Under the pieces are notes generated by a model. It did not search any database and was not told the origin of the DNA. It worked only from the letters and a program-made list of their open reading frames with translations. A program made the position numbers and the translations under genes. A DNA stretch of 64,000 nt, from positions 1-64,000 of the forward strand of contig JAPOSC010000018.1 of the NCBI GenBank assembly GCA_026709935.1. Reading direction: 5' to 3'. The stretch comes from Thiotrichales bacterium. GTDB taxonomy: Bacteria > Pseudomonadota > Gammaproteobacteria > HK1. Positions 111 to 2,342 of the stretch are shown one piece after another (the first letter of the stretch is position 1; each line of letters opens with the position of its first letter).

Positions 111-605
111 ATGATGCGCATACTGACACTCGCCGCCGCACTAGTGGCGACAATGGCAACCGGGCCGGTAATGGCGGCCGCGCAAGTGGGGCAGGGCGCA
201 TGTACGCCCGAAGCGGGCGATAACCGGGTTACGCGCTGGACAACACAAGACCAGAATGATTGCGTCTTTCCTAACTGCTATGTCCAGATCAATAGCATTA
301 CCGAAAACAGTGCAGATGTGACGGTGGATGTACAACATGCCTACGACTTCAACGGGAAATACGACGTGCCCCCTACTACCCCGAAAGTGGTGAATGTCGC
401 CGTGATGGGCAATGACGCGGCAGCGGGAACCGTAGTGTGGGGTAAGCGAGTTGGCGAACCGTTGACGGGCCTATTTCGCCAGCCAATTTTACGGCGTGTA
501 AAGCGGCACGGGACGCCTGCAACGCCGCACCGAACACGACTTGGGAGCAGGCTGGCAACCGCTGCATCGCGAGAGGCAGCTAACCGCGTAGATCACGCCT
601 TGTGA
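111..605 (+). CDS. Small secreted Cys-containing protein, probably frameshifted
   Basis: Unknown function. The ATG (or the adjacent ATG at 114) follows a good ribosome binding site, GGAGGG at 98-103. Residues 1-23 form a signal peptide with a hydrophobic core and an Ala-rich cleavage region, so the product should be exported. The reading frame continues to 605, but beyond about residue 117 it becomes Arg/His-rich and looks like a shadow frame. Adding one G next to position 460 would switch to the -1 frame, which continues with VDGPISPANFTACKAARDAC and two further stretches, including another Cys, and stops at 581-583. That would give a 157-residue protein with a natural-looking Cys-containing tail. 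I therefore read the gene as carrying a one-base deletion, either real or an assembly error. The annotated stop overlaps the next start as GTGA. Confidence 0.55.
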   Translation: MMRILTLAAALVATMATGPVMAAAQVGQGACTPEAGDNRVTRWTTQDQNDCVFPNCYVQINSITENSADVTVDVQHAYDFNGKYDVPPTTPKVVNVAVMGNDAAAGTVVWGKRVGEPLTGLFRQPILRRVKRHGTPATPHRTRLGSRLATAASREAANRVDHAL

Positions 606-952: not shown

Positions 953-1168
953 ATGGACAACCCCAAAGGACGACCTACCCGACCCAGAGACACCAACCAG
1001 CTCGCGAAGCACGTCATAGACGTGGCGACTGGACAGGAGTCCGACGAAGTTCCTGAGCCGACGGGCCGGGCGATCGGAGGTCACGCACGGGCCGCAAGTA
1101 TGACGCCCGAGGAACGCTCCGAAGCAGGCAGGGTCGCTGCCGCTGCCCGATGGCACAACCGGGCCTAA
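953..1168 (+). CDS. Small basic protein of unknown function
   Basis: 71 residues, not recognised as a characterised family. The N-terminus is Pro/Arg/Asp-rich. The C-terminal part contains ARAASMTPEERSEAGRVAAA followed by RW, a short helix-forming motif seen in small proteins on bacterial mobile DNA. No signal peptide or membrane segment. ATG start at 953. A terminator-like hairpin begins 4 bases after the stop codon, which supports the gene being a real transcription unit end. Confidence 0.5.
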   Translation: MDNPKGRPTRPRDTNQLAKHVIDVATGQESDEVPEPTGRAIGGHARAASMTPEERSEAGRVAAAARWHNRA

Positions 1169-1221: not shown

Positions 1222-1326
1222 TGGTGCCCTAACCCGGACTCGAACCGGGACGCCCAAGGCAGGTGTGTCTGCCTAAAGGACCACGGATTGGGAATCCGCT
1301 GCGTCTACCAATTCCGCCACTAGGGC
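1222..1326 (-). tRNA. Leucine-type (class II) tRNA with anticodon CCC
   Basis: A complete 105-nt cloverleaf with encoded CCA. The acceptor stem has 7 pairs (last one G-T), with G1-C72 and discriminator A73. The D-arm is identical in key bases to bacterial tRNA-Leu (GCGGAATTGGTAGACGC). The T-arm is CCCGG-TTCGAGT-CCGGG. The variable region is long (about 32 nt) and contains an extra AGGCAG/CTGCCT hairpin. The anticodon stem GCGGA/TCCGT encloses the loop TTCCCAA, giving anticodon CCC at 1290-1292, which pairs with GGG (Gly). Body and discriminator are LeuRS identity features and LeuRS does not normally read the anticodon, so misacylation with Leu is plausible by inference. It could be a decayed tRNA, an integration-site copy or a functional recoding tRNA. 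No minus-strand promoter is obvious upstream. Confidence 0.8.
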
Positions 1327-1327
1327 A

Positions 1328-1364
1328 TGGCCCGCAGAGTCTACACGATCTGCGGGCCATTTTT
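1328..1364 (+). terminator. Strong hairpin plus T tract, plus strand
   Basis: A perfect 11-bp stem (TGGCCCGCAGA with TCTGCGGGCCA) encloses a 10-nt loop and is followed by five T at 1360-1364, a textbook rho-independent terminator for plus-strand transcription. It ends 11 bases before the -35 box of the transposase promoter and would shield it from read-through. On the minus strand the same hairpin lies one base 5' of the tRNA. Confidence 0.75.
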
Positions 1365-1375
1365 ACGATAGATGC

Positions 1376-1411
1376 TTGCAATCCTGCCTTTGCTGGCATA
1401 TAATGGCCAGC
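1376..1411 (+). promoter_or_regulatory. Sigma-70 promoter of the transposase, with -10 in a hairpin loop
   Basis: TTGCAA at 1376-1381 and a perfect TATAAT at 1399-1404 are separated by 17 bases. The -10 box lies in the loop between GCTGGC (1392-1397) and its inverted copy GCCAGC (1406-1411). Expected transcription start is around 1410-1412, at the ATG at 1412, which predicts a leaderless or nearly leaderless message. Confidence 0.6.
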
Positions 1412-2311
1412 ATGAACATTCTACCTACACACACACGCATCCTCATCCTGAAGTGCCTAGTCGAGGGCATGAGCATTCGGGCGACGGCGCGACTGGCGGA
1501 AGTCTCCAAGGCGACCGTCATGAAGCTCGTGGTGACGGCCGGGGAGGTCTGCGCCAAGCACATGGACGAAATCATGCAGGAACTCCCCTGCCGACGCATC
1601 CAGGCGGATGAAATCTGGAGCTTCGTCTACGCGAAGGAGAAGAACGTCCCGCGCGCGAAGAAGGCTCCACCCAAGGCCGGGGATGTCTGGACGTGGGTGG
1701 CTCTCTGCGCGGATACGAAGCTGATTGCATCGTGGCGCATCGGTGACCGCTCCAGCGAAACCGCCATCGACCTGATGGACGACCTACGCCGCCGACTGAA
1801 GTACCGCGTGCAGCTCACCACAGACGGCCACAAGGCATACTTGGAAGCCGTCGAGGGCGCGTTCGGCGGGGACGTAGACTACGCGCAGTTGATCAAGTTG
1901 TACGATTCACCCTCGAAGGAGGAGGAGGGGCGACGGTACAGCTCAGGCGACTGCATCGGGATTCACAAGAAGGTGATCGAGGGTCGCCCCGACAAGGAGC
2001 ACATCAGTACGTCCTACGTGGAGCGCCAGAACCTCACCATGCGGATGTCGATGCGGCGGTTCACGAGGCTCACCAACGCCTTCTCGAAGAAGGTAGAGAA
2101 TCACGCACACTCAGTCGCACTGCACGTCTGGTGGTACAACATGGGGCGGCTGCACCAGACCCTGCGGGTTACCCCGGCAATGGAGGCTGGCGTCACAGAC
2201 CGGCTGTGGGAAATGGGGGATCTGGTCAGACTGATCGACGAGGCGACCCCGCCGCCTAAACGGCCTAAGACCTACCGGAAGCGGAAACTGAACGGGGAAT
2301 TTTCAAAATGA
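1412..2311 (+). CDS. IS1-family transposase, single-ORF type
   Basis: About 299 residues from ATG 1412. The longer frame opening at TTG 1376 overlaps the promoter and is unlikely. The N-terminal helix-turn-helix region (MNILPTHTRILILKCLVEG, then SIRATARLAEVSKATVMKL) is followed by a DDE domain of the IS1 type: first Asp-Glu in IQADEIWSFVYAKEKNVP, second in TTDGHKAYLEAV, third in STSYVERQNLTMRMS, and the usual VWWYN segment near the C-terminus. It catalyses DNA strand transfer of its own element. It is one uninterrupted ORF rather than the frameshifted insA/insB pair of classical IS1. I could not find convincing terminal inverted repeats or a target duplication, so the element boundaries are undefined. 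A terminator follows immediately. Confidence 0.88.
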   Translation: MNILPTHTRILILKCLVEGMSIRATARLAEVSKATVMKLVVTAGEVCAKHMDEIMQELPCRRIQADEIWSFVYAKEKNVPRAKKAPPKAGDVWTWVALCADTKLIASWRIGDRSSETAIDLMDDLRRRLKYRVQLTTDGHKAYLEAVEGAFGGDVDYAQLIKLYDSPSKEEEGRRYSSGDCIGIHKKVIEGRPDKEHISTSYVERQNLTMRMSMRRFTRLTNAFSKKVENHAHSVALHVWWYNMGRLHQTLRVTPAMEAGVTDRLWEMGDLVRLIDEATPPPKRPKTYRKRKLNGEFSK

Positions 2312-2342
2312 CCCACCACCCGTTGGTGGGGCGGTTTTGTTG
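2312..2342 (+). terminator. Rho-independent terminator after the transposase
   Basis: CCCACCA (2312-2318) pairs with TGGTGGG (2324-2330) around a 5-nt loop and is followed by GCGGTTTTGTT. It directly abuts the transposase stop codon. Confidence 0.75.

Follow-up and report, generated by a model that had tools for sequence, protein, structure and literature searches.

To our knowledge, natural tRNAs that miscode are known from few lineages. The nematode nev-tRNA-Gly(CCC) is a tRNA with a variable (V) arm that is leucylated in vitro, and the account of it reports that no misincorporation was detected in C. elegans (PMC4300185). In bacteria, the allo-tRNAs (Mukai et al., 2017, as summarized in the review PMC7609411) are class II tRNAs with diverse noncognate anticodons and acceptor/T stems of the 8/4 or 9/3 type; the section that this review devotes to them mentions neither a transposon family nor any ends or target duplications. 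A third kind, tRNA-ProX of Streptomyces and Kitasatospora, is described as a dual-identity tRNA for mistranslation, with a Pro body, A33/A34 and a partner, ProRSx, alongside (PMC11415595, PMC10365949).

The CCC-anticodon tRNA and its surroundings

The minus strand of the window (the whole stretch of DNA analysed here, 64,000 nucleotides from the start of a contig) carries at 1222..1326 a class II tRNA with a Leu-type body, an encoded CCA (1222-1224) and the anticodon CCC (1290-1292), as confirmed by Rfam, alignment and the nearest body. The Rfam tRNA model scores 50.0 bits over 1225-1326(-) (E 9.8e-8), and a class II model of our own, trained on 11 sequences with the window's tRNA among them, gives 73 bits across 1222-1326. 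The acceptor stem GCCCUAG/UUAGGGC forms 7 pairs with one G-U, the anticodon stem has 5 bp, also with one G-U, and closes the loop UUCCCAA, the T-stem has 5 bp, and the variable arm of 33 nt contains a perfect 6-bp helix. In the alignment the D-arm has the same sequence as those of Leu(TAG) and Leu(CAG) of the same genome; A15, U48 and A73 are present, and among 76 reference tRNAs the body is closest to Leu (40 vs. 29 for the next isotype). The class II body, tRNA-Leu D-arm, A73, encoded CCA and long variable arm that a sequence-only reading had noticed are thus confirmed, and its expectation of a best match to Leu was borne out by nearest neighbour and alignment rather than by tRNAscan-SE. Its wording that the anticodon reads GGG is correct for the codon that is read, the anticodon itself being CCC, and its suggestion of a decayed copy finds no support here, as the stems pair and U33, A37, A73 and the CCA are kept. 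ARAGORN gives no call for this tRNA, presumably on account of its long variable arm. When the RNA is folded by itself, the minimum-energy structure differs from the cloverleaf, with a z-score of only –1.8 and 13 of 200 shuffles folding as well or better, and a promoter scan found no promoter-like site on the strand of the tRNA.

Directly 5' of the tRNA lies a hairpin with perfect 12-nt arms (1327..1360), followed on the plus strand by a T tract, for which a terminator scan makes no call. An IS1-like DDE transposase (1412..2311, plus strand; PF03400, 32.8 bits vs. a cut-off of 24.1) adjoins on the strand opposite to the tRNA, preceded by a sigma-70-like promoter (1376..1404, plus strand; TTGCAA-17-TATAAT) whose –10 element ends 7 nt ahead of the ATG, a leaderless arrangement. 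The right terminal inverted repeat (TIR), GGTGGTGGGTCATTTTGAAAATTCC, is present at 2296..2320 on the minus strand (score 24.3 of 30.4). Upstream of the transposase the order is a gene preceded by a C17 tract, a 71-aa ORF called RAARW (953..1168, plus strand) and the tRNA, and the GC content is 60.3% in 1-2000 vs. mostly 64-69% further on, in agreement with the lower-GC DNA beside a transposase described earlier. No left TIR was found on the contig, whose start intervenes; with this end missing, the window copy is assigned to a transposon family by its transposase, right TIR and RAARW ORF and by position. The ORF at 111..605 (plus strand), directly after the C17 tract (72-88), resembles by eye a secreted protein and is possibly also transposon cargo, because the left end of the element falls off the contig. 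At L057, L058, L059, L060 and L061 as well, genes that resemble those of secreted proteins have a C/G homopolymer tract close to their start; several of these genes sit near contig ends, and together they look like a phase-variable family.

The host genome (3.78 Mb, 88 contigs, 45 tRNA matches) encodes a normal tRNA-Gly(CCC) (L010) with loop letters identical to those of the window tRNA. Host Leu tRNAs were found for GAG, TAG, CAG and CAA, and a Leu(UAA)-like gene (G000:C18, about 15464, L079) apparently has its anticodon loop split by about 0.2 kb of inserted DNA. Leu(UAA)-like genes with such an insert occur in six genomes of the window's family (L078, L079, L080-L083); the remaining anticodon arm follows 225-248 nt downstream in 6/6, the T-arm being recognised by pattern in one. 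The insert is perhaps a group I intron, and Rfam at gathering level names no intron there. A second odd tRNA of the host (G000:C48:1186-1279, L063) combines a Ser-type body (47 vs. 29.5 for the next isotype) with the Pro anticodon CGG and also has a hairpin directly 5'. Within the 9 kb examined around it there is neither a strong TIR nor a transposase match, so that the transposon does not account for everything; the Ser-type pattern with a non-Ser anticodon matched one of 17 family genomes, the host itself. A Leu D-arm with a base other than A at position 35 was found at 7 places in 17 family genomes, namely the window and the six insert-bearing genes; in the window's class 8 of 369 genomes matched, seven of them, besides the host, being known by the pattern match (loci L099-L106).

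The Leu/CCC combination is rare. An exact pattern for a Leu D-arm followed by CCC matched 11 stretches in 84,980 genomes, and at the pattern site the Rfam tRNA model recognises only one of them, L068 of a deltaproteobacterial MAG; two viral pattern matches score 40.5 and 37.3 bits with this model, above the gathering score of 29. No plasmid or phage copies of the window tRNA were found by blastn. L068 is a Leu/CCC tRNA within a 2906-bp element that has both TIRs and an exact 8-bp duplication; it is closely followed by an IS1-like transposase of the window type, and a small ORF similar to RAARW lies nearby. As a side observation, CPR-type MAGs (L065, L067, L069, L072, L075) show the 5' half of a tRNA-Leu some tens of nt ahead of a complete tRNA, with a CCCGCCCGCCTTGACTTC-like word after most of these halves.

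A transposon family that repeatedly carries tRNAs

Copies of the family share the inverted repeat GGTAGTGnnTCAGTTTGAA and a layout in which cargo and then the transposase lie between two such repeats. Among 65 strict TIR pairs (at least L068/L150 and L211/L152 being counted twice), 48 are flanked at their exact ends by an 8-bp direct repeat, one by a repeat of 9 bp, one by 5 bp and 15 by none, and the median element length is 2655 bp. The 48 complete elements longer than 0.9 kb contain a transposase match in 42 cases and, by a loose word search, a RAARW-type ORF in 24. These inverted repeats and 8-bp target duplications show that the transposon family exists, and they fit better than an integron cassette, which had been considered as the source of the contig-end repeats and was rejected. 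Transposase matches, many of them partial, were obtained in 45 of 148 genomes of the class of G382, 49 of 395 of its phylum and 13 of 369 of the window's class, as well as in 25 plasmid records. The TIR is common in IMG/VR viral contigs (viral_contigs, L274-L487), with at least 120 and at least 94 stretches for two exact versions and none for one pattern variant, and some pairs are 200-900 bp apart, MITE-like; back-translated transposase peptides gave no matches in the viral contigs, where the TIR patterns did match. A promoter match of at least 9/12 is present at 67 of the 105 loci whose transposase begins with ATGAAY, with the –10 element ending 6-8 nt ahead of the ATG in 57 of these 67, and 15 loci have a Shine-Dalgarno-like word; judging by this spacing, the transposase mRNAs look leaderless.

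Members of the family repeatedly carry tRNAs between the left end and the transposase, and the body/anticodon pairs that can be read mismatch. In a model-free scan for a T-arm with a 7-bp acceptor stem, hits were obtained at 16 of 126 transposase loci (read on both strands, up to 400 bp ahead of the gene; the loci include some near-copies as well as viral contigs) and in none of 940 control windows, read on one strand (Fisher 6e-16). As controls served twenty 20-kb regions (400 kb), hand-picked from 12 of the genomes, where matches to the R1 model, built in part from the window, L068 and C48 tRNAs, never exceed 18.4 bits; ten plasmid regions around transposase matches gave zero R1 matches. Chance was rejected on the strength of the independent L068 together with these controls.

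By R1 and ARAGORN, 27 tRNA-like sequences were placed inside elements, 11 because a TIR pair encloses them and the other 16 on positional grounds, a transposase following them with no TIR in between. For this table TIRs scoring below 15 were unused, L371 (Leu/UGG, one TIR) was counted as outside, and neither weak R1 matches (L145 and the lesser ones of L212, L218 and L186) nor loci retrieved twice were entered. The anticodon mismatches the nearest body in 27/27, a few calls being unsure (L186, L168, L238, L247 and L457). By nearest body, four are Leu, six Ser, two Ala and six Arg, the remaining nine being of other types, and several of these assignments are weak or tied; the anticodons as called are ACU and UUA (4 each), CCC, UGC and GCU (3 each), UGG and UAU (2 each) and, once each, GCA, CCA, AUC, AGU, GUC and CAA. 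At a body score of at least 38, all 10 inside tRNAs (L186 included) are discordant and 15 of 16 outside are concordant (Fisher 2.1e-6); with no threshold the 55 outside tRNAs comprise 25 concordant and 30 discordant, and for Leu/Ser bodies scoring at least 30 discordance is seen in 9/9 inside and 4/11 outside, which means that the body calls are noisy. U33 was read in 23 and a purine at 37 in 24 of the 27, counts that are biased upward because the anticodon-finding routine favours both. Among 12 tRNA-bearing elements examined, exact duplications are present in nine, of 8 bp in L068, L260, L268, L293, L330, L337, L401 and L405 and of 9 bp in L426, and are lacking in L415, L451 and L259. The element L405 is 200 bp long and holds a tRNA (Ala body, GUC), being too short for a transposase.

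ArgRS accepts C35-U36, and the group with ACU or GCU anticodons, which has C35-U36, looks Arg-like, the nearest body being Arg in L260 (tied with Gly), L415, L430 and L451, tied in L268 and L367 and Asp in L254. In these seven members 98% of stem pairs are kept, and 16 of 21 pairs show changes of both partners, part of which may come from different parents. A reduced tRNA-like type of 71-74 nt, in which acceptor and T-arm are kept and the remainder is shrunk, occurs upstream of the transposase in L261, L264, L265, L267, L269 and L465. It has G3-U70 and A73 in 6/6 and the loop word UUUAC or CUUAC (UUUAG in L465). G3-U70 and A73 are determinants for alanine charging, and the reduced sequences are possible ochre-reading alanine tRNAs. 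The UUA anticodon is also found in Leu- or Ser-type element tRNAs, at 10304-10389 of L293 and 9080-9192 of L337, and would read the stop codon UAA. Some element tRNAs are apparently unfit for decoding, such as L238 (anticodon arm), L318 (C33) and the reduced L261/L265 type, and L247 and L238 are decayed copies. Carriage is patchy on the transposase tree, with 15 changes for 19 labelled carriers (the later-found L264, L267 and L269 are left out of the labels) and 13 of 500 shuffles as low; a single tRNA-bearing clade is unsupported.

Proposed function and alternative explanations

Given the family data, the window tRNA very probably travels with a transposon family in which tRNAs of this sort recur as cargo; the earlier suggestion of a mobile-element copy is thus right, more literally than proposed. 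The best explanation, held with somewhat better than even confidence, is that a missense-type tRNA travels as cargo of an IS1-like transposon, for which we infer expression and miscoding. In those bacteria that have been studied, LeuRS takes no account of the anticodon, and the Leu, Ser and Ala synthetases of E. coli do not use it; many of the bodies inside elements are Leu, Ser or Ala. From its body and anticodon, the window tRNA is probably leucylated and able to read GGG. It would be transcribed and trimmed, LeuRS would load leucine onto it via A73 and the class II core, and the charged tRNA would compete with the normal tRNA-Gly(CCC) at GGG, giving a low level of Gly-to-Leu substitution. 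Strong miscoding would harm the window transposase, since GGG stands at two of its near-invariant Gly positions (134/135 and 141/141).

As to the benefit for the element, our guess is an addiction- or stress-type cargo, because the corresponding position in sister elements is taken up by proteins of toxin-antitoxin- or defence-like type. In a scan of 20 selected larger cargo proteins, 10 match HTH_3, 9 of those also Peptidase_M78, with L464 below both cut-offs; two match P63C, one SocA/Panacea (in the tRNA-bearing L330) and 7 nothing. Two XRE-M78 proteins were run through PADLOC, each with a match to PD-Lambda-2_B; the window RAARW ORF and transposase match nothing there. The cargo slot thus often holds toxin-antitoxin- or defence-like genes, and the tRNA may, by analogy, help to maintain the element.

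For the tRNAs inside elements, the evidence leans towards working tRNAs, given the bodies of anticodon-independent synthetases, the stem pairing of the ACU/GCU group and the U33 and purine 37. The forms that are reduced or damaged, as well as the strand bias, suit a regulatory role, in which the tRNA-like sequence would be a regulatory or processing element whose folding, together with cleavage by RNase P/RNase Z, insulates or tunes the expression of the transposase while the anticodon drifts. Just upstream of the transposase, 15 of 16 scanned sequences share its strand (binomial p 0.0005), and the reduced type keeps the acceptor and T-arm as the rest shrinks. However, the window tRNA is the exception and lies antisense to the transposase, promoter matches mostly stand just ahead of the transposase start codon (57/67, among the 105 loci), that of L068 lies between tRNA and transposase gene, and L405 has a tRNA with no room for a transposase. 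Moreover, the reduced type keeps G3-U70 and A73 throughout, and the recurrence of ACU, UUA, CCC, UGC and GCU is unexplained by drift, unless by common descent. A regulatory element is regarded as rather unlikely.

The capture of a tRNA gene by chance, now a drifting pseudogene, would suit the patchy carriage, the decayed copies L247 and L238 and the MAG origin of the data, yet stems and loop are intact in the window copy, the cases are repeated, and the high-scoring inside bodies are all discordant where recent capture would give cognate anticodons. The both-sided stem changes of the ACU/GCU family, part of them possibly inherited from different parents, also argue against drift, and a pseudogene appears distinctly improbable. 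A sequencing or assembly error in an ordinary tRNA-Leu would fit a draft genome of 88 contigs, a contig end and a long homopolymer nearby, but CCC is at least two positions away from every standard Leu anticodon and the same Leu/CCC combination stands in the independent genome of L068; an error is very improbable.

The codons of the transposases speak to a last alternative. At the 7 alignable GGG codons of the window transposase, Leu occurs in no homologue (0 of 133-146 residues per column); these codons fit glycine, which makes a changed code unlikely, and the L068 transposase contains no GGG. Element-specific recoding of the transposases was likewise rejected, since at conserved columns codons fit the standard residue. 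This test listed 19 elements, 16 with a long-enough transposase, 4 of these without a readable codon of the relevant kind, with L168 and L186 treated as having no assigned body; departures from the fit lie in variable columns that also contain the residue of the body (L166 codon 21, Ser 37/131; L232 codon 166, Ser 25/144; L451 codon 63, Arg 22/138). A changed genetic code with GGG as Leu in element or genome, which body and anticodon by themselves would permit, is largely refuted by these codons and by the normal host tRNA-Gly(CCC), and its probability is close to negligible.

Returning to the missense-type cargo, a wider proposal can be made only tentatively, and may well prove wrong: that small transposons of one widespread family disseminate functional tRNAs, both missense types and nonsense suppressors, as a selfish or defensive load. 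These tRNAs would occupy the position that toxin-antitoxin or anti-phage modules have in sister elements, their bodies being of types that synthetases charge regardless of the anticodon (Leu, Ser, Ala) or of Arg type with a C35-U36 anticodon, and some elements would have shrunk to a tRNA flanked by the two inverted repeats. A tRNA-carrying transposon would be a route by which miscoding tRNAs spread and a means to find them by its ends, and it makes testable whether mobile missense and ochre-reading tRNAs repeatedly invade bacteria, and with what effects.

Comparison with known systems

The classical IS1 has two ORFs joined by frameshifting. The present family resembles IS1 in the DDE_Tnp_IS1 (PF03400) match of the window transposase above the cut-off and in target duplications of 8-9 bp (48 + one of the 65 TIR pairs); it differs in its single ORF of about 300 aa, its own TIR and its cargo, and its transposase falls below the NCBIfam IS1 equivalog cut-off (72.8 of 100 bits). 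Among titles and abstract openings, no literature report of this transposon family with a tRNA cargo was found.

For the tRNA itself, the analogy to nev-tRNAs drawn in the sequence-only reading is a good one, since nev-tRNA-Gly(CCC) has the same combination of body and anticodon and is leucylated in vitro (PMC4300185). Like the nev-tRNAs, whose noncognate anticodons are Gly CCC or Ile UAU, the window tRNA has a V-arm and a noncognate anticodon, CCC, and it could likewise read GGG as Leu; nev-tRNAs are nematode nuclear genes, whereas the window tRNA is bacterial and transposon-borne. By analogy, it would work like a nev-tRNA without being a member of that nematode-specific family, its genome being prokaryotic.

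With the allo-tRNAs, as the review presents them, it shares a noncognate anticodon but not the 8/4 or 9/3 stems, its own being 7/5, nor the SerRS identity, its body being Leu-type with A73; L259 and, less surely, L457, which are Ser-type with UAU, come closer. Like tRNA-ProX, the window tRNA would be a bacterial dual-identity tRNA that causes mistranslation, but it has a Leu body and keeps U33, and a Pfam scan of the four ORFs next to it gave no synthetase-like match, the element's left part lying off the contig. On the evidence of these sources nev-tRNAs, tRNA-ProX and allo-tRNAs are kinds already known; the transposon vehicle, of which no report was met among titles and abstract openings, also offers a carrier for the remark in the allo-tRNA section of the review on transposon-linked allo-tRNAs (PMC7609411).
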